Assembly (NCBI GenBank): GCA_903822495.1
Contig: CAIJPD010000015.1
Coordinates: 1-64,000, forward strand
DNA: 64,000 nucleotides
Origin: an uncultured Chloroflexota bacterium
GTDB taxonomy: Bacteria > Chloroflexota > Limnocylindria > Limnocylindrales > CSP1-4
Direction: 5' to 3'
The translations under genes and the position numbers were made by a program. Positions 24,549-43,812 of the stretch are shown piece by piece. Position 1 is the stretch's first letter; the number at the start of each line of letters is the position of its first letter. A model generated the notes under the pieces. It had not been told where the DNA came from. It searched no databases and worked only from the letters and a program-made list of their open reading frames with translations.

Positions 24549-25430
24549 ATGCGTATCGCGATCGGGCTGCCCACCCGCGGCCGGGGTGTCACGGCGGCAT
24601 CGCTCGTGGAGTGGGCCATCCGTGCCGACCAGGGTCCCTTCTCCACGCTGGGCGTCTCGGACCGGGTGGTCACCAACGCCCAGGAGCCGCTGATCGCCCT
24701 GGCGGTGGCCGCCGGCGCCACCCGGCGGATCGGCCTCATGACGGCCGTGATGCTGACGCCCACGCATGAGACCACGCTGCTGGCACGCCAGGCGGCCTCG
24801 CTGGATGCCCTTTCCGGCGGCCGGTTCTCCATGGGCGTCGGCGTGGGTGTCCGCACGGACGACTACGACGTCACCGGCTTCGATTTCCATCGGCGCGGGG
24901 CGCTGCTCGAGGAGCAGCTGGCAACGCTCCGCCGGATCTGGGCGGGTGAGCCCGCGGCCGAGGGCATCGGCCCCATCGGTCCGGCGCCGGCGCGACCCGG
25001 CGGCCCCGAGGTCCTGATCGGTGGCTACCTGCCGGTGGTGGCGCGTCGGGTCGCCGCCTGGGGCGACGGGTTCATGTCCCCGGGCGGAGGGGATCCCGAG
25101 AAGATGGCCGCCCTGTGGCGGCAGATCGAGGCGGCCTGGGATGCGGCGGGCCGCTCCGGGCGCCCCCGCTGGGTCACCGGGAGCTACTACTCGCTGGGAC
25201 CGCGCGCGGAGGAGAACGCCGACGCCTACATCCAGGCCAGCTACGGGTTCAGCCCGGACCTGGTGAAGCGCAACCGCGGCAACATCCCCACCACGCCGCA
25301 GTCCCTCCGTGACCAGATCCGTCGGCGCGAGGACATGGGCGCCACGGAGTACCTGCTCCGTCCCGTCGTTGAGGACCTGACGGCACTCGATGAGCTGGCG
25401 GACGCGGTCGCCTCGATCGCGGATGCCTGA
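24549..25430 (+). CDS. LLM-class oxidoreductase, tandem paralog
   Basis: Strong similarity to 23612..24490 across its length; SD GGGAGGAG. Confidence 0.88.
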   Translation: MRIAIGLPTRGRGVTAASLVEWAIRADQGPFSTLGVSDRVVTNAQEPLIALAVAAGATRRIGLMTAVMLTPTHETTLLARQAASLDALSGGRFSMGVGVGVRTDDYDVTGFDFHRRGALLEEQLATLRRIWAGEPAAEGIGPIGPAPARPGGPEVLIGGYLPVVARRVAAWGDGFMSPGGGDPEKMAALWRQIEAAWDAAGRSGRPRWVTGSYYSLGPRAEENADAYIQASYGFSPDLVKRNRGNIPTTPQSLRDQIRRREDMGATEYLLRPVVEDLTALDELADAVASIADA

Positions 25431-25462: not shown

Positions 25463-26755
25463 ATGACCACGGCACGTCGCCCCGGCTCCTTCGTCCGCCT
25501 GCCCGGCGGCCTCGCGCCGCTGGGCTATCGAAACTTCGCCCTCTACTGGCTGGGCTTCGCCTCGACCAACGCGGGGAAGTGGATCGAGAACACGGGTGCC
25601 GTCTGGGTAGCCTACGAGCTGACCGGCAGCCCCTTCCTGCTGGGCCTGATGGGGGTGATCCGGGCGCTGCCCACCATCCTCGTCACACCCTTTGCCGGCG
25701 TGCTGGTGGACCGGGTGGACCAGCGGCGGCTGATCATGGTGACGCAGGCGATCATGCTGGTGACCTCGCTGGTCACGGGCCTCCTGATCCTCGAGGGGCG
25801 CATCGAGCTCTGGCAGCTCTACCTCGAGGTCTTCATCCAGTCCGCGGTCCTGTCCGTGGACTACATCGCCCGCCAGGCGCTCTTCCCGCGCCTGGTGCCG
25901 CGCGACCACATGGTCGAATCCGTCACGCTGACATCCACGGCGGCGCGGATCTCCGGCCTGGTCGGGCCAGCGGTCGGCGGGTTTGCCATTGCGGGGTTTG
26001 GTGACGCGGCTCCATTCCTGCTCAACGCGGCCACCTTCCTGGTGCTGATGGGCGCCCTGGCCGGGATCAAGGGCGTGGCGTGGTCCGTTGGCGTGTCCGT
26101 CCGGACCACGTGGCGCGCGGAGCTGATCGAGGGCTGGCGGTATCTCCTGGCGACGCCGGTCCTGCTCGGTCTGCTCCAGCTGGAGGTCGTGTACGGCGTG
26201 TTCCAGATGAACCCGGTGTTGATCACCATCGTGGGCCGCGAGACGCTGGGCGTCGGCCCCGAGGGTCTCGGGGGGCTCCTGTCGGCGACCTCGGTGGGGG
26301 CCATCGTCGGGACCGGGCTGCTGCTCGCCTTCGGCACCACGGCGCGCCCCGGGCGGTTCGTGACGCTGGCCGCCATCGCCTGCGCCGCCGCGCTGATCGG
26401 GTTCGCTTTCACGCGCGACTACGTGACCGCCTTCGCGGTGCTCATGGTCGCCGGCGTGTTCGATGCGATGGTCAGCGTGACGCGGAGCACCATCGCCCAG
26501 CTGGCGGCGCCCGGCCACATGCGCGGCCGCATCATGGCCAATCAGGGCGTGGTGGTGCGGGGCTTCGGCCCATTGGCGCAGACCCAGAGTGGGGTGACCG
26601 CCGGCCTGCTCGGTGGGCCGATGGCCGTGCTCGTCTCATCGCTGGCCCTGGGCCTCAGCGCGGCACTGGTGGCGCGCGGCAATCGGCCCTTCTGGCGCAT
26701 GGCCCGTGACGATGACCCGGATCGCGACGACAACGCCGCGCCTGCCAGCGGATGA
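25463..26755 (+). CDS. MFS transporter (EntS-like exporter family)
   Basis: LAPLGYRNFALYWLGFASTNAGKWIENTGAVWVAYELTGSPFLLGLMG; 12-TM-like. Confidence 0.88.
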   Translation: MTTARRPGSFVRLPGGLAPLGYRNFALYWLGFASTNAGKWIENTGAVWVAYELTGSPFLLGLMGVIRALPTILVTPFAGVLVDRVDQRRLIMVTQAIMLVTSLVTGLLILEGRIELWQLYLEVFIQSAVLSVDYIARQALFPRLVPRDHMVESVTLTSTAARISGLVGPAVGGFAIAGFGDAAPFLLNAATFLVLMGALAGIKGVAWSVGVSVRTTWRAELIEGWRYLLATPVLLGLLQLEVVYGVFQMNPVLITIVGRETLGVGPEGLGGLLSATSVGAIVGTGLLLAFGTTARPGRFVTLAAIACAAALIGFAFTRDYVTAFAVLMVAGVFDAMVSVTRSTIAQLAAPGHMRGRIMANQGVVVRGFGPLAQTQSGVTAGLLGGPMAVLVSSLALGLSAALVARGNRPFWRMARDDDPDRDDNAAPASG

Positions 26756-28029
26756 CGAGCGCCCGCGACATCCCGCCGTTCGCCCGCCTGCCCGGCGGCC
26801 TGGCACCGCTTGGCTACCGCAACTTCCTGCTCTACTGGGTGGGCTTCGTCGCGTCCAACTCCGGCAAGTGGATCGAGCAGACGGGCGCCGTCTGGATCAC
26901 CTACGAGCTGACCGGCAATCCCTTCCTGCTGGGCCTCCTGGGGATCGTCCGGGCCGTGCCCACCTTGCTGCTGACCCCCCTGGCGGGCGTCATCGCCGAC
27001 CGGGTTGACCAGCGTCGCCTCCTGTTCGCCACGCAGAGCCTCTCGATGGTGGCCTCGCTGGCGCTGGGCGTCCTCGTCGTCACCAACACGGTCCAGCTCT
27101 GGGAGGTCTACCTCCAGGTCGGGATCCAGGCCGCGATCACCTCCGTTGATTCCGTCGCGCGCCAGTCGCTCTTCCCACGGCTCATCCCGCGCGAGCGACT
27201 GGTGGAGGCGGTCACGCTCCAGTCCATGGCCGGGCGGGCCTCCAACCTCATCGGGCCGGCGATCGGCGGGTTCGCCATCGCCGGGCTGGGGGAGGCCGCG
27301 CCGTTCTTCCTGAACGCCATCTCGTACCTGTGCCTGATGGGGGCGCTCGCGCTGGTGACCGGGATCTCCGCCCGGGTCGGCGGGGTCCGCGAATCCTTTC
27401 GCACGGAGCTCACCCAGGGCTGGGTCTACATCCTGCAGACGCCGGTCCTGCGCAGCCTGATCCTCCTCGAGGTGTTCTACGGACTCTTCGCCATGAACCA
27501 GGTAATGATCACGATCGTCGCCCGCGAGCAGCTGAACGTGGGGCCCGAGGGGTTGGGTGGGCTGCTCTCCGCCGATGCCGTGGGCGCGCTCGCGGGGATA
27601 GGGATCCTCCTGGTCGTCGGTGCCACAAGCCGTCCGGGCCGGTTCGCGATCCTGTGCACCGCCGGGTACGCGGCATCCATCGTCGCCTTCGGGTTGACCT
27701 CGACGTACGTCTTCTCCTTTGCGGCCCTCGTCATGACCGGGCTCTTTGATTCGCTGGTCTCGGTCACCCGCAACAGCCTGATGCAGCTCGCGGCGCCCAG
27801 TGGGATGCGCGGCCGGGTGATGGCCAACCAGGGCATGATCGTGCGCGGGATGGCGCCCCTGTCGCAGACACAGAGCGGCTTTGTCTCCGGCCTGGTGGGC
27901 GGCCCCGCGGCCATCCTGCTGGCCGGCGGGGTGATGGCGGTGGGCGCCGTGGCCGTCCTGCGTGGGAATCGGGCGCTGTGGACCATCCAGCGGGACGATG
28001 TCGTCCGACGACCCGGTCGGCCGCTATAG
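26752..28029 (+). CDS. MFS transporter, tandem paralog of the preceding gene
   Basis: ATGA overlap with preceding gene; high similarity from the N-terminus. Confidence 0.88.
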   Translation: MTSARDIPPFARLPGGLAPLGYRNFLLYWVGFVASNSGKWIEQTGAVWITYELTGNPFLLGLLGIVRAVPTLLLTPLAGVIADRVDQRRLLFATQSLSMVASLALGVLVVTNTVQLWEVYLQVGIQAAITSVDSVARQSLFPRLIPRERLVEAVTLQSMAGRASNLIGPAIGGFAIAGLGEAAPFFLNAISYLCLMGALALVTGISARVGGVRESFRTELTQGWVYILQTPVLRSLILLEVFYGLFAMNQVMITIVAREQLNVGPEGLGGLLSADAVGALAGIGILLVVGATSRPGRFAILCTAGYAASIVAFGLTSTYVFSFAALVMTGLFDSLVSVTRNSLMQLAAPSGMRGRVMANQGMIVRGMAPLSQTQSGFVSGLVGGPAAILLAGGVMAVGAVAVLRGNRALWTIQRDDVVRRPGRPL

Positions 28030-28036
28030 TCGGGCC

Positions 28037-28588
28037 ATGGCACATCCCCGCGTCGAGCAGCTCCGTTTCGCCCGCAGCGAGTTCCTCCGTGGCCTGGACG
28101 GCCTGACGGGGGAGCACGCGGCCCAGCAGCCCGGGCCAATGAACTCCATCGCCTGGATGGTGGGCCACCTGGCCTGGCACGAGCAGCTCTCCTGGCTGAC
28201 GCGGGCGCAGGGTGTCACGCCCCGCCCGGAGCTCAACGAGCTGACCGCCAACGGCAAGCCCAGGTCAAACCCGCCCCTCGCCGAGATGCTGGCGGCCTGG
28301 CGTGAGGTGACCGAGGCGTCTGACGGGTGGCTGGACGCCCTGGAGCCGGCGGACCTGGCGGCCCCGATGGGCCGCTCCCGCATCCCGCAGTCCGTTGGGA
28401 CCGCGCTGCTGCGCATGACCTACCACTACTTCGTCCATTGCGGGGAGGCCTCGGCCGTTCGCCAGCTGATCGAGGGCGGCGAGCTGCCGGAGTTCGTGGG
28501 CGCGATCCAGGTGGAGGCGCCGTGGCGCGCGGAGCCGGCCTGGGAGGCCGGTGAGTCCGGACAGCCGGGCGCGGAGGTGGTCGCGTGA
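28037..28588 (+). CDS. DinB family protein
   Basis: QLRFARSEFLRGLDGLTGEHAAQQPGPMNSIAWMVGHLAWHEQ typical DinB_2; ATG 6 nt after TATAGT. Confidence 0.75.
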   Translation: MAHPRVEQLRFARSEFLRGLDGLTGEHAAQQPGPMNSIAWMVGHLAWHEQLSWLTRAQGVTPRPELNELTANGKPRSNPPLAEMLAAWREVTEASDGWLDALEPADLAAPMGRSRIPQSVGTALLRMTYHYFVHCGEASAVRQLIEGGELPEFVGAIQVEAPWRAEPAWEAGESGQPGAEVVA

Positions 28589-29565
28589 CGCGGCCGCACG
28601 TCCCGCAGGAGGTCCTGGACGCCGCGCATGCCCGCAAGGCGGCGCGCCTGTCGCACAACTTCGACGCGGCCGACCGCCTGAAGGGTGAGATCGAGGCCCT
28701 GGGCTGGCGCATCGTGGACCGCGGGGTCGACTTCGCCCTCGCGCCCCTGCACCCGGCCGATGTGGCCGAGGAGGGCCGGACGCTCTACGGCTGGTCGGGC
28801 GGTGTGCCCAGCCGGCTCGACGAGCCCGCGGTTGCGCCGGCCACGGTCATCGTCCGGGCCGGAGACGACGCGGCGACCGCCGAACTGTCCGTGGGCACCA
28901 TCCTCGGTGCGGCACCCGCCGGCACGCAGGTGGTCATCGTCGCGGACGGCGCCGCGTCCGACGTGGCGGAGGCTGTCGCGCGCGTCGCCGCCGACCGGCC
29001 GGAGGCCGTCGAGGTGGTCTGGGTTGTCGCGCGGCAGGGCACGGCGGCGGCGATCAACGCTGGCCTCCGGCGTGCCGCAGGTGCTGTGGTCATCGTGCTG
29101 GGTGCCGGTGCGCGGGTCGGCGGCGACGTGGTGACGCCGCTGCTGGCCGCCCTGGCCGATCCCACCGTGGCGGTCGCGGGTGCCCAGGGGCAGGAGGGCC
29201 CGGATATCCAGTCCCTCGCGCCGGCGCCCCTCACGGGCGACGTGGCCGCGCTGGACGACACGTGCCTGGCCATGCGCCGGGACGATGCCGCCGCGCGCGG
29301 GCCGCTTGACGAGCGGTTCCGCAGCCCACGGCTGCTCGCGGCGTGGTGGAGCCTGGTGCTGCGCGACGAGGAGGACGGCCCCACGAGGCGCGCGCTGGTG
29401 GTGCCGGGCCTGCCGGTCAGCCGAGACGTCCGGGCCGAGGCGATCGATGCCGCGCCGGACGCCAACGCCGGCGAACGCGACCGCCTCGCGCGCCGGGACC
29501 GGTACCGCCTGCTCGATGCCTTCCGCGACCGCGATGACCTGCTCGTGGGCGACCTGCCCGACTGA
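28585..29565 (+). CDS. Fusion: cysteinyl-tRNA-synthetase C-terminal-like helical segment plus degenerate GT-A/glycosyltransferase-2-like domain
   Basis: N-term ARKAARLSHNFDAADRLKGEIEALGWRIVDRGVDFAL resembles CysS C-terminus; remainder VVIVADGA..DVAEAVAR...GTAAAINAGLRRAAGAVVIVLGAGARV resembles GT2 without the DxD. Confidence 0.6.
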   Translation: MTRPHVPQEVLDAAHARKAARLSHNFDAADRLKGEIEALGWRIVDRGVDFALAPLHPADVAEEGRTLYGWSGGVPSRLDEPAVAPATVIVRAGDDAATAELSVGTILGAAPAGTQVVIVADGAASDVAEAVARVAADRPEAVEVVWVVARQGTAAAINAGLRRAAGAVVIVLGAGARVGGDVVTPLLAALADPTVAVAGAQGQEGPDIQSLAPAPLTGDVAALDDTCLAMRRDDAAARGPLDERFRSPRLLAAWWSLVLRDEEDGPTRRALVVPGLPVSRDVRAEAIDAAPDANAGERDRLARRDRYRLLDAFRDRDDLLVGDLPD

Positions 29566-29620: not shown

Positions 29621-29782
29621 ATGCGCCAACGGCCCTGGTTGATGGTCCTCCTGTTCGGGTTTGCCGGTCAGAGTTGCGTCTGCGCGGGTGCGGCGCCCGG
29701 CCCGACCCCCACCGAGCGACCGCTGCGGGTCGCGCGCGCCGGGCGCCTGCAGCGGACGACGGCCTGGTGGCAGGCGGCCTGA
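29621..29782 (+). CDS. Putative small ORF (53 aa) with signal-peptide-like N-terminus
   Basis: TATACT 7 nt upstream of ATG; MRQRPWLMVLLFGFAGQSCVCAGAAPG... Confidence 0.3.
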   Translation: MRQRPWLMVLLFGFAGQSCVCAGAAPGPTPTERPLRVARAGRLQRTTAWWQAA

Positions 29783-31425
29783 CGCCGGACGCCCCGGATC
29801 TCGCCTCGGTCCAGGTCGTTCGCTCCTTCCCCCGCCGCCGAATGCTGGGCGCGCTCGCGTTGGTCGCGCTCGTGCTGGCGGGGGCGATGGCCGGATCGCG
29901 CGGCGCCACGCCCGGAGCGGGTGGCAACCCCGTCGGCGCCGCCGTCGCCAATCCGGGCGAGGTCCGCATCCTCTCCGGTGTTCCGGCCAGCCTCGACCCG
30001 GCCGCCGGGGGCGATATCGGCAGCGCGTCCGTCACGGCGCAGTTGTACGAGGGGCTCACCGCGTTCGATCCGGGCCTGGTCCTGCGGCCGGCGCTGGCGC
30101 GCTCGTGGGACGTCAGCGACGGTGGGCGACGCGTCGTCTTCCATCTCCGGCCCGGACTCACGTTCTCGGACGGCACGCCGCTCACAGGCGCCGACGTCGT
30201 GCGCAGCTGGCTCCGGCTCATCGACCCTGCCGCGCCGTCGCCCCTCGCCTCGCTGATGTCGGACGTGGTCGGCGCGGACGACTACCGCGCCGGGCGGAGC
30301 AGGGACGCCGCTGCCGTCGGCCTCGTCGCCGAGGGCACGGACGTGACCGTGCGCCTCATCAACCCGGCCAGCGACCTCCCGTCGATCATCGCCGCCGCAC
30401 CCTTCGCGGTGGTCCCCAGGGGCGTCGCGGACGGCTCCGCGCTGGCACCGGGTCGGTTCGTCGGCAGCGGTGGCTACGTCCTGGCCGCGCTGACGGACAC
30501 GGAGCTGACCCTGACCGCCAACGCGCACTACTGGGCGGGATTGCCGGCCATCGACACCGTCCACCTGGTGGTCAGCATTGCCGGCCGCAGCCCCGTCACG
30601 GCGTTCCAGGACGGCGATCTCGACTACACCGAGATCGGGACCTACGACGCCAGCTGGATCCGCTCCGACCCGACGCTGGGGCCGGCGCTGCGTTCGGTGC
30701 CCAGTCTCTCGCTCGAGTACCTGGGCTTCGATACCAGCCGCGCCCCGTTTGACCAGGTGCTGGTTCGCCAGGCCTTTGGTGCCGCCATCGACTGGCGCAG
30801 AGTCGTTGCCCTGGCCAACCCGGGGAATGACACGCCGGCGACCGCCATGGTCCCGCCCGGCATCCCCGGCCGGGACTCCGCGACCTTCCTGCCCGCTTAC
30901 CAGCCGGATCGCGCCAGGGCGCTGCTCGCGCAGGCGGGCTACCCGGGCGGCAAGGGCTTCCCGGCGGTGACCTTCGTGACCGGCGGCAGCGCGTACGGCG
31001 AGGCCATCCGAGCCGGGCTGCAGTCCGCGCTCGGCATCTCGCTGGGCTACGAGACGATGGTCAGCGACGACTACTTCACGCGGTTGCGGGACGACCCGCC
31101 GGCCATCTGGATGCTGGGCTGGATCGCCGACTACCCGGGGCCCAACGACTTCCTGGGCGTCCTGCTCCGGTCGGACAGCACGAACAACTCCGGGCGCTGG
31201 CGCAGCCCGGAGTTCGACCAGGCCATCGCCGACGCCGGGGCAGCCAGCGATGGGGCGGCGATCGCGGCCGCCTTCGCCCGCGCCCAGGGCGTCGTGCAGC
31301 GAGACGTGCCCGTGATCCCGCTGGCCAACGGCGACGGCTGGGCACTGTCGCGCAGCGGCCTCCTGGGGGCCAGCCAGAATGGCCTCGGCATCCTGCGGAT
31401 CGCGGGGCTCGCATGGGCGCGCTAG
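29767..31425 (+). CDS. ABC transporter solute-binding protein, family 5 (peptide/oligopeptide)
   Basis: SVTAQLYEGLTAFDPGLVLRPALARSWDVSDGGRRVVFHLRPGLTFSDGTPLTGADVVRSW typical SBP_bac_5; start uncertain (GTG 29767 chosen). Confidence 0.88.
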   Translation: MAGGLTPDAPDLASVQVVRSFPRRRMLGALALVALVLAGAMAGSRGATPGAGGNPVGAAVANPGEVRILSGVPASLDPAAGGDIGSASVTAQLYEGLTAFDPGLVLRPALARSWDVSDGGRRVVFHLRPGLTFSDGTPLTGADVVRSWLRLIDPAAPSPLASLMSDVVGADDYRAGRSRDAAAVGLVAEGTDVTVRLINPASDLPSIIAAAPFAVVPRGVADGSALAPGRFVGSGGYVLAALTDTELTLTANAHYWAGLPAIDTVHLVVSIAGRSPVTAFQDGDLDYTEIGTYDASWIRSDPTLGPALRSVPSLSLEYLGFDTSRAPFDQVLVRQAFGAAIDWRRVVALANPGNDTPATAMVPPGIPGRDSATFLPAYQPDRARALLAQAGYPGGKGFPAVTFVTGGSAYGEAIRAGLQSALGISLGYETMVSDDYFTRLRDDPPAIWMLGWIADYPGPNDFLGVLLRSDSTNNSGRWRSPEFDQAIADAGAASDGAAIAAAFARAQGVVQRDVPVIPLANGDGWALSRSGLLGASQNGLGILRIAGLAWAR

Positions 31426-32804
31426 GCCGGCTGGCCGCGGCCGTGGCGCTGGTCGCGTCACTGGCGGCACCGCCCGGTGCGACCGCCGCCGGCAGCTCGT
31501 TCGGGACGCCCACGGCCACCGCAACCTACGGAACGGGCATCGACTTCCGCCAGCCCGTGACGCTGGCCGCCCCGATGCTCCGGGCGGAGCTCCTGCTGGA
31601 GTTCCCCAAGGAGCCCGGGCCCGAGGTGCGGGTGGTGGCTGCCCCGGCGGGTGGCTCCAGCACGCTCCGCTTCACGCTGGATACCAGCACCGGCGGGCTG
31701 CTGCCCAACACCACGGTGACCGCCCGCTGGCGGCTCGTGGCCAAGGATGGGAGCTCCTCGGTGGGCCCGTCGGTCACGGTCCGCTACGACGACACCCGGT
31801 TCACCTGGCAGACGCGCCAGGGGAGGCTGGTCCGCGTCCACTGGTACCAGGGCACGGCCGCCTTCGGTGATCGTGCGCTCCAGATCGGCGAGGACGCGAT
31901 CGCGCGCACCGGCCGGCTGCTCGGCGTGACGGAGACGCAGCCGATCGACTTCTTCATCTATGCCGATCAGCAGGCGTTCTACGACGCGCTGGGCCCCGGC
32001 ACCAGGGAGAATGTCGGCGGGGAGGCGATCGCGGGGATCCGGACACTCTTTGCCTTGATCACGCCGGCCGACATCAACGCCTCGTGGGTCGGGATCGTGA
32101 TCCCGCACGAGCTGACCCACCTCGTGTTCGACACCGCGGTCAGCAACCCGTACCACTTCCCGCCGCGCTGGTTGAACGAAGGGCTGGCGGTCTACCTCGC
32201 GCAGGGCTACGACGGCAGCGACACGACGACCGTCAAGTCGGCCGTCTCCGCCGGAACGCTCATGCCGCTGGCGTCGCTCACCGGCCAGTTCCCAACGACC
32301 CGGGACCGGTTTGGGCTGGCCTATGCCGAGAGCGTCGCCGCCGTCGACTTCCTGGTTCGCCAGAAGGGCGAGGCGGCGCTGGTCGGCCTGATCCGGTCGT
32401 ACGCCAACGGCGTGACCGATGACGAGGCCTTCACGGCGTCGCTCGGGCTCGACGCGGCGGCGTTCGACGCCGCCTGGCGGTCCAGCCTGGGCGCTCGTAA
32501 CCCGGTTGCCTACGGGCCCGTCCCGGCACCCAGCGGGCCCTTGCCCGTCGACTGGGCGGGGAGCCCCTCCGCGTCGGGCTCCACCAGCGGCGCGACCGGG
32601 CCCCCGAGCCCCGCGGGCAGCACCGGGCCAACGCCGACCGCCGCCGCGACGCAGGGCCAGGGCACATCGCAGGGCGCCGGGTCGCCGGCGATCCCGCTCC
32701 TCTTCGCCGGCCTCGTCTTCCTGGCGGCCGTCCTGCTCGTGCGGTTCAGATCGCGGCGACGGCGCGACGGCGGTCCCATGCGGCCACCGCGGGTCGCCCG
32801 GTGA
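31413..32804 (+). CDS. Peptidase MA-like metallohydrolase with signal peptide and C-terminal TM
   Basis: WVGIVIPHELTHLVFDTAV...PPRWLNEGLAVYLAQG (HExxH-type HELTH + NEG), C-term IPLLFAGLVFLAAVLLVRFRSRRRR. Confidence 0.8.
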   Translation: MGALGRLAAAVALVASLAAPPGATAAGSSFGTPTATATYGTGIDFRQPVTLAAPMLRAELLLEFPKEPGPEVRVVAAPAGGSSTLRFTLDTSTGGLLPNTTVTARWRLVAKDGSSSVGPSVTVRYDDTRFTWQTRQGRLVRVHWYQGTAAFGDRALQIGEDAIARTGRLLGVTETQPIDFFIYADQQAFYDALGPGTRENVGGEAIAGIRTLFALITPADINASWVGIVIPHELTHLVFDTAVSNPYHFPPRWLNEGLAVYLAQGYDGSDTTTVKSAVSAGTLMPLASLTGQFPTTRDRFGLAYAESVAAVDFLVRQKGEAALVGLIRSYANGVTDDEAFTASLGLDAAAFDAAWRSSLGARNPVAYGPVPAPSGPLPVDWAGSPSASGSTSGATGPPSPAGSTGPTPTAAATQGQGTSQGAGSPAIPLLFAGLVFLAAVLLVRFRSRRRRDGGPMRPPRVAR

Positions 32805-33586
32805 CAGGACTCCGCGCACGACTCCGCGCCGTCCAGACGTGGCAGATCACGCTGGGGCTGGCCCTGCTGGTGCTCGGTTTCCTGATCGCCGCGCAGCTGG
32901 CCAGCGAACGCCCCCGGGTCCGGTACACCACCCAGGAGCGATCCCCGCTGGTGGATGCCGTCCGTGAACTGCAGGCGCAGCAGGAGGACCTGAAGTCCGC
33001 GATCCTGGGCCTCCGCCAGGAGATCCAGGACGGGGAGGGCCAGGGCGAAGGGTCGGCGCTGCTGGTCCGCCAGCTCAACGACCAGTTGCAGCAGGCGCGC
33101 CTCGCGGCCGGCCTGGTGGCGCTGACCGGGCCGGGCGTCGTCTTCCGCCTCGAGGACGGGACGTCGGGCAGCTCCGGCAGCCGCGGTGAGAGCATCGTGA
33201 CGGCCAAGGACGTCCGCACCCTGGTGGAGGAGCTCTGGCTGGCCGGTGCCGAGGCGGTCGCCGTCAACAACGAACGCGTGCTTGCCGGAACGGCGTTCCT
33301 CGACATCGGCGGCTCCGTCCTGGTCAACTCGGCCTATCTCGCGCCGCCGTACACCGTGACCGCGATCGGCCCCGCCAACCTCTACGCCCGGGTCTCGGCG
33401 TCACGCGGCTTCGTGGAGCTCTACCGCGTCCGTACGCAGAAGGGCGGGATCGTGCTCACCTACGCGGAGCGCGACGGCCTCCGCGTGCCGGCATTCGCCG
33501 GGACGGTGAACCTGTCTGCCGGCCATCCGGTGCCCAGCGCGACGCCCAGCGGTCCTGCCAGCGATGCACCGGCGGGGACGCCGTGA
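32801..33586 (+). CDS. DUF881 (YlxW/YlxX-like) membrane coiled-coil protein
   Basis: N-terminal TM, coiled coil RELQAQQEDLKSAILGLRQEI, ALTGPGVVFRLEDG, LVEELWLAGAEAVAVNNERV. Confidence 0.8.
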   Translation: MTGLRARLRAVQTWQITLGLALLVLGFLIAAQLASERPRVRYTTQERSPLVDAVRELQAQQEDLKSAILGLRQEIQDGEGQGEGSALLVRQLNDQLQQARLAAGLVALTGPGVVFRLEDGTSGSSGSRGESIVTAKDVRTLVEELWLAGAEAVAVNNERVLAGTAFLDIGGSVLVNSAYLAPPYTVTAIGPANLYARVSASRGFVELYRVRTQKGGIVLTYAERDGLRVPAFAGTVNLSAGHPVPSATPSGPASDAPAGTP

Positions 33587-34275
33587 CCGCGCGCGTGACC
33601 GGCAAGCGCTGGCGCGACCAGGCCGCCGTCGCCGTGGTGGCGGCCGTCCTCGGCGTGCTCGTCGTGATCCAGCTTCGCACGCAGCAGGCCGATCCGGGGC
33701 TGTCCGCGCTGTCGGCGCAGGACCTGACCGTGCTGATCGCCAACCTCAACACCCGGAACGGACAGCTGCGCGAGGAGGTGGCCACCCTGTCGCGCGAGCT
33801 CTCGACGCTCTCCGCCAGCCAGGCCCGGGGCCAGTCATCGGTGGACCAGATCCGCCGGGACCTCGCCAAGGTCCGGGCGTGGTCCGGCCTCGACCCGGTG
33901 GCCGGGCGGGGGGTCCGCATCCTGGTGAGTGGACCCATCGATGGCCCCGGCGTGGAGGAGTTGCTCAACGAGCTGCGGAACGCCGGGGCGGAGGCCATCT
34001 CGGTCGGCGGCGTGCGCCTCGTCGCGGGCACCGTCGTGGCCGGCTCCACCGGCTCGATCGGCGTGGAGACCACGCTCCTGGCCGATCCATTCGAGGTCGT
34101 GGCCATCGGGTCGCCCGAAGTCCTGACAGGCTCCCTCACGCGCGCCGGCGGGGTCATCTCCCTGCTCGCCGCGACGCATCCGCAGGTCCATGTCGTCGTC
34201 ACCCCCGCCGACGGCCTCCAGGTCCCGGCCACCATCCGTTCGCTGGCGCCCAGCCATGGCGCGCCCCGCCTCTGA
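33583..34275 (+). CDS. DUF881-family protein, second copy
   Basis: Coiled coil then GRGVRILVSGPIDGPGVEELLNELRNAGAEAISVGGVRLVAGT; ATGA-type overlap. Confidence 0.75.
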   Translation: MTARVTGKRWRDQAAVAVVAAVLGVLVVIQLRTQQADPGLSALSAQDLTVLIANLNTRNGQLREEVATLSRELSTLSASQARGQSSVDQIRRDLAKVRAWSGLDPVAGRGVRILVSGPIDGPGVEELLNELRNAGAEAISVGGVRLVAGTVVAGSTGSIGVETTLLADPFEVVAIGSPEVLTGSLTRAGGVISLLAATHPQVHVVVTPADGLQVPATIRSLAPSHGAPRL

Positions 34276-34291
34276 TACTCTGCGCGCCCAT

Positions 34292-34612
34292 ATGACCGAC
34301 CAGCCCGTTCTCGAGCTGCTCCTCGGCGACATCGTCCGGCTCCGCCGCCCGCACCCCTGCGGCGGGACGGACTGGCAGGTCGATCGCCTCGGCGCGGACA
34401 TCGGCCTCACGTGCGCCACCTGTGGTCGCCACGCGATGATCGAGCGACGCCCGCTGGAGCGTCGGATCGAAGGATTCGTCCGGCGGGGTGACCGATCGAT
34501 CTCGGCTGTGACGGCCCCCGTGGCCCAGCCCGACAGCGCAGGTGCAGTCCAGGCGGTGCCCGGGCGCACCACGCGTACTCGGTCCGCGACCGCGCCTGGG
34601 AGCACGCCGTGA
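34292..34612 (+). CDS. DUF951-family small protein with extended C-terminus
   Basis: LGDIVRLRRPHPCGGTDWQVDRLGADIGLTCATCGRHAMIERRPLERRI. Confidence 0.8.
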   Translation: MTDQPVLELLLGDIVRLRRPHPCGGTDWQVDRLGADIGLTCATCGRHAMIERRPLERRIEGFVRRGDRSISAVTAPVAQPDSAGAVQAVPGRTTRTRSATAPGSTP

Positions 34613-36081
34613 GCCCCGCGGCGTCGGGCCCCGTGAGTCGGAGCCACAGCGGGCTGAGCGTCCTCCGGAACCGACCCTTCCTGCTCCTCTGGCTCTCCCA
34701 GGTGGCGACCCAGATCGGCGGGAACATGGTCCTCTACGGGCTGACCGTCCTGGTGCTCCAGTCGACCGGGTCCAACTCGGCCATCAGCGCCCTCTTCCTG
34801 ACCTTCCTGGTGCCGGCCGTGCTGCTGTCGGCCGTGGCCGGGGTGTACGTGGACCGGATGGATCGACGGACCATCCTGATCCTGACCAACCTCCTCCGCG
34901 CCGTGGCCATCGGCGGGATCTTCCTGGTCGGGAACAACATCGCCGGGATCCTGCTGCTGAACGTCTTCGTGTCGGTCATCACCGTCTTCTTCGCACCGGC
35001 CGAGGCGGCGATGATCCCGGTCCTCGTCTCGCGCGCGCAGCTCGTCTCGGCCAACGGCCTGTTCACCCTGACGCTCAACGGCGCGTTTGCGCTGGGGTAC
35101 GCGCTCCTGGGCCCGCTGATCGTGACCCTGCTCGGGCCGGAGCGGCTGATCCTGGTCGTCGCCGTCCTCTACCTGGTCGCCGCGCTGTTCTGCTTCACCC
35201 TTCCGGCGTCGCGTCCGGTTCATGGGCTGCAGCTTGGCCTCGATTCGGTCGGCGAGGCGGAGACGGCCGTGGTGCGGAATGTCGGCGCCCTGCGAGAGGG
35301 GATCGACTACATCCGCCAGAACCCGGCGATCAGCTGGTCGCTCGTCTACCTGGGCATCGCCGCCTCGCTCGTCGGCGTGATCGGCGTGCTGGGACCGTCG
35401 TTCGCCCAGGTCACGCTGGGCCTGGACGCCAAGGACCTGATCGTGGTCATCCTGCCGCTGGGCCTGGGGATCGTGTTCGGGATCCTCCTGCTCAACGCCT
35501 ACGGCAAGTACGTGGTCCGACGGCGCGCGATCGAGGGCGGCCTGATCCTGCTGGGGGTCCTGCTCGTGCTGCTCACGGCGGCCGGGCCCATCAGCCGCGC
35601 CGTCAACGCCGTGGACAGGTCCAACCAGATCTCCAACCTGTCCGGCCTGACCTCCCTGGTCTCCGTGGTCGTGGTCATGGCCTTCTTCGCCGGGATTGCG
35701 TACGGGATCGTCGCCATCTCCAGCCAGACCGCGCTCCAGGAGGACCTGCCCGAGGCGGTCCGCGGGCGGGTCTTCGGCGTCCTCAACATGCTGGTCTCGG
35801 TCGCCAGCTTCATGCCCATCATCCTGGTCGGGCCAATCGCGGACCTGGTCGGGACCACCAACGTGATCCTGTCGGTGGCGGGCGCCGTCCTGGTCGCCGG
35901 GATCATCTCGGTGGTGGCCCGCGGGCCGGTGGCTCCCGAGGATGCGCGGCGCACAGCGGGCACCATGGTGGAAGGCAGCCCGATGGACTCCATCGGGGTC
36001 ACGGTCCGGGCACGCGACGACCTGGGCGCCTCCGCGACCGCGGATGAGGCGGAGTCCACCGTCGCGGACGTCAGCGAATGA
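34609..36081 (+). CDS. MFS transporter
   Basis: Multi-TM MFS_3-like, FLLLWLSQVATQIGGNMVLYGLTVLVLQSTGSNSAISALFLTFLVPAVLLS; ATGA overlap. Confidence 0.88.
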   Translation: MSPAASGPVSRSHSGLSVLRNRPFLLLWLSQVATQIGGNMVLYGLTVLVLQSTGSNSAISALFLTFLVPAVLLSAVAGVYVDRMDRRTILILTNLLRAVAIGGIFLVGNNIAGILLLNVFVSVITVFFAPAEAAMIPVLVSRAQLVSANGLFTLTLNGAFALGYALLGPLIVTLLGPERLILVVAVLYLVAALFCFTLPASRPVHGLQLGLDSVGEAETAVVRNVGALREGIDYIRQNPAISWSLVYLGIAASLVGVIGVLGPSFAQVTLGLDAKDLIVVILPLGLGIVFGILLLNAYGKYVVRRRAIEGGLILLGVLLVLLTAAGPISRAVNAVDRSNQISNLSGLTSLVSVVVVMAFFAGIAYGIVAISSQTALQEDLPEAVRGRVFGVLNMLVSVASFMPIILVGPIADLVGTTNVILSVAGAVLVAGIISVVARGPVAPEDARRTAGTMVEGSPMDSIGVTVRARDDLGASATADEAESTVADVSE

Positions 36082-37481
36082 CGGGGCCTGACCGCCGCGT
36101 GACGCCCGACGCGTGGCGCGCGATCGCCCTGGGCGTGCTCGTCGGGGGGCTCGTTGGCGGCATGCGCGCCGCGTCGGGCCGCCGGGCATCCACGCCACTC
36201 GCCCTCGCCGCCGCGGTCGTGGCCGGGTCCGTGATCCCCATCGCGCGGGCCAGTCGCCGGCCACCGGTGCCGCAGGGCGCGCCGCCGCTGGACCCCGCCG
36301 CGACGCCCGTGACCTTCTCGGTGGTCGTCGCCGGCCGCGACGAGGCCAACGTGCTGCCGGCCCTGGTGCGCGACGTGGCCGGTCAGGACTGGCGTGACGA
36401 AGATGGCGAGCCGCGCTTCGAACTTGTCGTCATCGACGATCGCTCCATCGACGGGACGGGGGCGGCCGTCCTCGACGCTGCGACCAGGGCCGGGATCGGC
36501 GCCGTCACGCGGGTGATCCGGCGCGAGGGCGAGGGCCTGCCCGACGGGAAGGGGGCCGCGCTGACCGCCGCCCAGCCGGACGCCTGCCGCGGGGACTACG
36601 TCGTGGTCCTCGACGCCGACGCCCGGATCGGGAGCGGCTTCCTGCGGGTCCTCGCGGGCTATGCGGCGGCGGGCGTGGATGCCATGACCCCGCGACGCCG
36701 CATCCTCGACGCGGGGAGCTCGGTGCTCGCCCAGCTCCAGGCCGACGAGCAGACGCTGGACGGCGAGCTCCAGCGGGGCCGGTGGGCGATGGACGGTTGC
36801 TCGGAGTTCCGGGGCAACGGGATCACCATCCGTCGCTCCCTCCTGACGGCGCTCGGCGGCTGGCACGCGGAGGCGCTCACCGAGGACATCGACCTGTCGA
36901 GCCGCCTGGCCGCCGAGACGGGGATCGTGGTCGCATGGATCCTTGACGCCGAGGTCTGGGAAGAGCCGGTACGGAGCTGGAAGTCCCTGCTCCGCCAACG
37001 GGAGCGCTGGTCCGAGGGCGCGGCCCGGCGGGCATTCGAGCACGGCCCCGCGATCATGGCCAGCCGCCGGCTCTCGCCGCGCCAGAAGGCCGATTTCGCC
37101 CTCTACGTGGCGCAGCTCCTGGCTCCGCCGCTGATCATCGGCGCCGCGCTCGGGACGGCCCGCCGTCGACCCGTCTCGGCGGCGATGCTGCTGGGGACCT
37201 ACATGGTGATCAGCGGCGGCATCACCTGGGACGCGCTGCGCTGGGAGCGGGATGCCTCCGGCCTGCCACCGGCGCCCGGGCCGCGAGTCGGCCGGGCCGT
37301 CGGCGCCGGGGTCTTCACGTTCGTCTGGCTGGCCGCCGTGCCGCGAGCGCTGTGGCGACTTGCGACCCGGACGGGGCATGTCCGGTACGACAAGATGGCC
37401 CACCACGGGTCGTCGGCCGGCACGGCACTGGATCCATCGGACGACCACGCGGCCGACGACCCGGAGCGCACTGTCGGCTAA
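36078..37481 (+). CDS. Glycosyltransferase family 2 membrane protein
   Basis: SVVVAGRDEANVLPALVRDV...VVIDDRSIDGTGAAV...YVVVLDADARIGSGFL...QRERWSEG (QxxRW). Confidence 0.88.
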   Translation: MTGPDRRVTPDAWRAIALGVLVGGLVGGMRAASGRRASTPLALAAAVVAGSVIPIARASRRPPVPQGAPPLDPAATPVTFSVVVAGRDEANVLPALVRDVAGQDWRDEDGEPRFELVVIDDRSIDGTGAAVLDAATRAGIGAVTRVIRREGEGLPDGKGAALTAAQPDACRGDYVVVLDADARIGSGFLRVLAGYAAAGVDAMTPRRRILDAGSSVLAQLQADEQTLDGELQRGRWAMDGCSEFRGNGITIRRSLLTALGGWHAEALTEDIDLSSRLAAETGIVVAWILDAEVWEEPVRSWKSLLRQRERWSEGAARRAFEHGPAIMASRRLSPRQKADFALYVAQLLAPPLIIGAALGTARRRPVSAAMLLGTYMVISGGITWDALRWERDASGLPPAPGPRVGRAVGAGVFTFVWLAAVPRALWRLATRTGHVRYDKMAHHGSSAGTALDPSDDHAADDPERTVG

Positions 37482-43735: not shown

Positions 43736-43812
43736 GGGCGGCTAGCTCAGCTGGTTAGAGCACTTGCTTGACATGCAAGAGGTCACTGGTTCGAGTCCAG
43801 TGTCGCCCACCA
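43736..43812 (+). tRNA. tRNA-Val (anticodon GAC), CCA encoded
   Basis: Acceptor GGGCGGC/GTCGCCC (one G-T), D arm GCTC..GAGC, anticodon arm CTTGC-TTGACAT-GCAAG, T arm ACTGG-TTCGAGT-CCAGT, ACCA. Confidence 0.96.

Follow-up and report, generated by a model that had tools for sequence, protein, structure and literature searches.

We examine a 64,000-nucleotide stretch of DNA (hereafter, "the window") from an uncultured Chloroflexota bacterium of the lineage CSP1-4 (assembly GCA_903822495.1, contig CAIJPD010000015.1, positions 1 to 64,000 of the forward strand), and in particular a forward-strand gene at 28585..29565 with a GTG start. It encodes a stand-alone protein of 326 aa that joins a domain from the C-terminus of cysteinyl-tRNA synthetase (CysRS), known as CysS_C, to a domain of the family 2 glycosyltransferase (GT2) type. 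The open reading frame (ORF) has no internal stops, and its start overlaps the stop codon of the upstream gene for a DinB/mycothiol-S-transferase-like protein (28037..28588, forward strand) in a GTGA; a same-genus copy has ATG at the equivalent site. This same-genus homologue is 97% identical and carries no frameshift, and the dN/dS between the two copies is 0.134, with neighboring genes in a similar range. Homologues are present in 90 of the 107 genomes of the window's taxonomic family (designated f1; f4, f21 and f22 are other families compared below) and in 33 of the 34 high-quality ones. The ORF is a real gene under purifying selection, as the 97% identity homologue, the dN/dS and the family-wide presence rule out a chance ORF. 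The promoter and terminator scan returned nothing.

Residues 7-46 (28603..28722, forward strand) correspond to the CysRS C-terminal anticodon-binding domain (PF23493) by profile comparison, Pfam, contact residues and structure match, and a linker with short beta strands in the AlphaFold model follows (residues 47-82; 28723..28830, forward strand). Such a likeness had been claimed from the sequence in the original prediction, and it holds up. When a profile of the stand-alone family N-termini is aligned by hhalign with canonical CysRS C-termini, the probability is 98% (E 9.6e-14). Pfam matches PF23493 in 30 of 48 family members; on the window sequence alone, PF23493 falls below threshold and the first 65 residues are unassigned. 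Modeled alone, the domain has a pLDDT of 78.8, and its top two PDB matches in Foldseek are the E. coli CysRS-tRNA-Cys complex 1u0b (prob 0.98, 1.4 Å over 47 columns) and Borrelia CysRS 3sp1, for which so short a domain yields only weak E-values (0.6 and 0.95, respectively).

The contact residues agree with this assignment. R17, R21, F26, D30 and D45 of the window protein (28633..28719, forward strand) align with E. coli CysRS R423, R427, W432, D436 and D451, so that all are kept, with W changed to F. In the E. coli enzyme, R423, R427, W432 and D436 contact anticodon base G34 (PMC12684709, citing Hauenstein 2004). Across 147 aligned GT-bearing homologues, gathered with a search pattern that demanded R427 and D436 but neither D451 nor G446, positions 427, 436 and 451 are identical throughout; position 432 is aromatic except for L in two proteins, and position 423 is R except for H in 9, all of these exceptions being fused proteins of the kind described below. 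Only one f1 sequence, a truncated one, failed the pattern. The N-terminus of the window protein is thus a true CysRS anticodon-binding domain.

The remainder of the protein, residues 83-320 (28831..29544, forward strand), is a GT2-like domain of GT-A fold. The GT2 resemblance originally proposed is borne out by a PF00535 match (E 5e-8), by Foldseek matches to GT-A enzymes (E ~1e-8) and by an AlphaFold model of the window protein with a mean pLDDT of 93.4. The active site, on the other hand, is lost. By alignment, the window reads G173-A-G-A-R177 (29101..29115) where relatives have D-x-S-V-E (the DxS(xE) motif), L250-L251-A252 (29332..29340) where they have N-L/A-D, and R280-D-V-R-A284 (29422..29436) where they have R-H-x-H-R, all on the forward strand. 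From the alignment and general knowledge, we take these three motifs of the relatives to be the GT2 DxD, the catalytic Asp and the metal His. All six active-site positions tested (D, S, E, the catalytic D and both H) are changed, to G, G, R, A, D and R. Catalysis had already been doubted because the DxD site reads GAGAR; this is correct, two further catalytic positions are lost as well, and no intact metal-binding motif turned up elsewhere. With every tested motif gone, the GT domain of the window protein is very probably non-catalytic.

The window protein is homologous over its full length to a phylum-wide family in which CysS_C is followed by the same type of GT2 domain. We find the GT unit in 118 of 400 sampled genomes of the phylum, with 47 of the matches lying within open frames of at least 700 aa. 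Many other lineages encode the CysS_C-GT2 unit as the C-terminal half of one longer protein (720-930 aa), with a complete second cysteinyl-tRNA synthetase (CysRS2) at its N-terminus. These fused proteins carry, in one frame, the motifs CGPTVY..HxGN, GWHIEC, HHEDE and KMAKS (signature, zinc-site and KMSKS-like), and Pfam places PF01406, CysS_C and PF00535 within a single protein. The window ORF has no CysRS Rossmann catalytic domain, HIGH/KMSKS motifs or Zn ligands, all of which are present in the fused relatives. The fusion occurs in other families of the window's class and in other classes, and a separate CysRS accompanies it in nearly all of the fused genomes examined; the fusion was seen without one only where the genome was incomplete, for example in G298 and G363. 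Since most relatives outside the window's family keep their catalytic residues, we see in the window protein not a new chimera but an eroded representative of an otherwise intact family. The joining of CysS_C to a GT domain, which had been singled out as an unusual architecture, is therefore real but not unique: a search of related genomes recovers it family-wide and across the phylum, where it most likely goes back to the full-length fusion.

Beyond the phylum's genomes, a search of the plasmid collection gave nothing matching the GT part, and none of its records covered the fused protein over 80% of its length. No CysRS-glycosyltransferase fusion is reported in the open-access papers searched, most of the subscription literature lying outside that search. 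The neighborhood of the fused gene in other classes showed no conservation except for a cyanophycinase-like gene (VGSGEYT...) in a few genomes; three genomes from two families have it immediately 3' of the fused gene. In other classes, many of the fused proteins have a His-rich C-terminal tail (e.g., HEHKHWPDHSHTHPHTH), which is not seen in the window's family and which suggests metal binding.

The trees bear on the order of events. In the CysRS tree, a branch (SH-aLRT 87) has all fused proteins on the same side, and a supported clade (96) unites them with the unfused CysRS2 of the window's family, f22 and f4. The GT tree, which is unrooted, places the stand-alone f21 group inside the fused clade, while the stand-alone proteins of f1, f4 and f22 form the side opposite the fused proteins. 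Genomes of f21 often carry both a fused copy and a stand-alone CysS_C-GT2 copy. These sequences are most simply explained by an ancestor that was fused and later split, CysS_C being retained, and the stand-alone gene in the window most likely derives from a full-length CysRS-GT2 fusion. One could also suppose that the GT captured CysS_C first and that the CysRS-GT2 fusion came later, in which case the window gene would be no remnant of a fusion. The separation of stand-alone f1, f4 and f22 from the fused group in the unrooted GT tree fits this order; but the f21 copies nested in the fused clade still carry CysS_C, so separation with retention does happen, and a single fusion origin also accounts for every CysS_C. 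We regard the capture-first order as unlikely. The stand-alone f21 copies have lost the HxH site, a second and independent case of erosion.

Genomes of the window's family encode the GT half in its own gene, and CysRS2 is either a separate gene, often a tail-to-tail neighbor, or absent. The tail-to-tail arrangement is found in ~18 family genomes, in several of which CysRS2 separates the GT gene from a conserved block; in the window, the block comes immediately after the GT gene. This block (SBP_bac_5, Peptidase_MA_2, two DUF881, DUF951, MFS and GT2; 29767-37478) lies 3' of the GT gene in many family genomes. The window contains no CysRS2 remnant beyond CysS_C itself, and CysRS2 was not found in the window's genome, where a single CysRS was seen.

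Within the window's family, the GT active site is eroded mostly in genomes lacking CysRS2. The D/D/H triad is intact in all 29 fused proteins and in all 22 stand-alone proteins of f4 and f22, but in only 9 of the 31 in a first f1 sample, the catalytic motifs of the other 22 being not fully intact. Among 88 f1 genomes, the triad is intact in 19 of 25 with CysRS2 versus 6 of 63 without (Fisher p 2e-9, uncorrected for kinship). On the tree, 3-5 independent pairs change in the expected direction and ~0 in the opposite one. In lineages lacking CysRS2 and having an eroded triad, mean GT identity is 0.455, compared to 0.61 in intact lineages, whereas CysS_C identity is nearly unchanged (0.56 versus 0.61). 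Such a pattern might be read as pseudogene decay, with a GT half made functionless by the loss of CysRS2 and now drifting toward loss itself. The loss of all three catalytic motifs, the failure to find CysRS2 in the window's genome and the faster evolution of the GT in eroded lineages are what this would predict. A decaying gene, however, would hardly show a dN/dS of 0.134 between two species with no frameshift at 97% identity, be kept in 63 genomes where CysRS2 was not found, or conserve its CysS_C contact residues, and we consider decay improbable.

We favor instead, with a probability of roughly 0.55, a composite reading in which an ancestral system acted on tRNA-Cys, the window gene descends from the fusion, and its product is now a selected, non-catalytic, tRNA-Cys-binding remnant. 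The ancestral fused protein would have attached cysteine to tRNA-Cys, with the GT domain acting either on tRNA-Cys or on its cysteine. In the window's lineage, CysRS2 would then have been lost and GT catalysis would have decayed, leaving a protein that may persist as a non-catalytic tRNA-Cys binder, e.g., a regulator, a chaperone or a competitor of charging or modification. The GT half keeps an anticodon-reading module of its own after leaving a synthetase that has another, which suggests that the GT substrate is probably tRNA-Cys or its cysteine. Likewise, the erosion of GT motifs in the absence of the synthetase points to the two acting in one process. The window protein probably still binds tRNA-Cys.

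The more specific proposal, in which a dedicated CysRS2 charges tRNA-Cys, a tRNA-Cys-directed GT then adds a sugar to the tRNA or its cysteine, and the window's lineage retains only a non-catalytic tRNA-Cys binder, is one we put forward tentatively, at less than even odds. If it is true, the product would be a glycosylated tRNA or an S-glycosyl-cysteinyl-tRNA. A phylum-wide CysRS-glycosyltransferase fusion would predict a new use of tRNA-Cys and thus an undescribed process; it was through other fusions of a second aminoacyl-tRNA synthetase, with LysX as the model, that tRNA-dependent pathways not serving translation came to light. The prediction can be tested on the stand-alone remnants, since these retain the G34-reading residues, and the retention or loss of their sugar-transfer site goes largely hand in hand with that of the partner synthetase.

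Several observations weigh against the composite reading. A phylogenetically corrected test on supported branches alone is non-significant, there being too few pairs, and calls of CysRS2 absence are uncertain where genomes are incomplete. Since the search pattern demanded R427 and D436, the conservation of both positions is partly selected for. An early stand-alone lineage (f1, f4 and f22) beside a fused one fits the GT tree equally well. Finally, the intact members themselves read D-x-S (or D-x-G) in place of DxD, and NLD or NAD in place of ED, so that the glycosyltransferase activity of the whole family is putative.

A different function for the ancestral system would be the synthesis of a low-molecular-weight thiol, in which the GT supplies a sugar acceptor to which CysRS2 joins cysteine, in the manner of MshC, a CysRS paralogue with a sugar acceptor in mycothiol synthesis (PMC9437257). 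That precedent and the DinB/mycothiol-S-transferase-like gene overlapping the window gene lend this idea some appeal. Unlike MshC, however, CysRS2 has retained its anticodon-binding half, and the GT has a G34-reading domain of its own. In the CysRS tree, MshC-like proteins form a separate clade with fused CysRS2 outside it; moreover, no third, MshC-like match is present in fused genomes such as G296, G303, G505 and G509, so the fusion does not require MshC. The DinB gene is a neighbor in 4 loci only and stands outside the conserved system, and we reject a functional operon with it on the same count. Thiol synthesis is therefore a doubtful explanation, and doubtful to a somewhat greater degree than decay.

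It is still less probable that the GT domain of the window remains catalytic through non-canonical residues. GT2 families do differ in their DxD motif, and the fold is confidently predicted (pLDDT 93.4); but the tested positions read G, G, R, A, D and R, and no conserved substitute residues are seen in the family alignment. One might also take the N-terminal segment for a generic UVR motif or coiled helical hairpin with no relation to CysRS, given its short (40-50 aa), helical nature and one weak UVR match (PF02151, E 0.016, in 1 of 48 members and not in the window). This idea can be dismissed in view of CysS_C matches in 30 of 48, an hhalign E of 1e-13, 1u0b as the best structural match and the retained contact residues.

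Other features of the window deserve brief mention. Two luciferase-like monooxygenase genes are adjacent, and the second (24549-25427) has a dS of 0.047 to the same-genus copy, compared to ~0.17 for its neighbors, a low value that hints at recent exchange or conversion. Two MFS transporter genes of the same family lie in tandem at 25463-28029. Downstream of the CysS_C-GT2 gene, a short ORF with a signal-like N-terminus (29622-29784) has a TATACT box a few bases 5' of its ATG, and TATCCT boxes occur just 5' of the start codon in several GT genes of the family; boxes so placed suggest leaderless transcripts. The sole Rfam match in the window is a tRNA gene at 43736-43809.

How does this system compare with those already known? 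Relative to E. coli CysRS (PDB 1LI5/1U0B; TIGR00435), the N-terminus of the window protein equals the C-terminal anticodon-binding domain, but the catalytic, zinc and helical-bundle parts are missing and the domain stands N-terminal to a GT2 domain; the fused relatives carry the whole enzyme. With GT2/GT-A enzymes (SpsA, PcManGT 6YV7, WrtF, ppGalNAc-T; PF00535), the window protein shares the GT-A fold and a GT2 sequence match. It differs in that the motifs of its family are D-x-S-V-E, NLD and HxH rather than DxD, ED and H, with all of them lost in the window, and in that it carries a tRNA anticodon-binding domain. MshC-like proteins stop before the anticodon-binding domain, whereas the window protein has only that domain. 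The CysRS*/SelC* recoding system also involves a non-canonical second CysRS; in the family described here, by contrast, the anticodon-binding domain is the best-conserved part.

The housekeeping synthetase stays alongside LysX, just as a separate CysRS stands beside the fusion here. In LysX itself, a second aminoacyl-tRNA synthetase is joined to the enzyme that makes use of its product (PMC9437257), and CysRS2-GT2 is also a second synthetase fused to another enzyme. The two differ in that the amino acid is cysteine rather than lysine, the partner has a GT fold rather than being a lipid aminoacyltransferase, and use of the charged tRNA is only inferred for CysRS2-GT2. LysX shows that the fusion of a second synthetase to an enzyme using its product is a known kind of arrangement.
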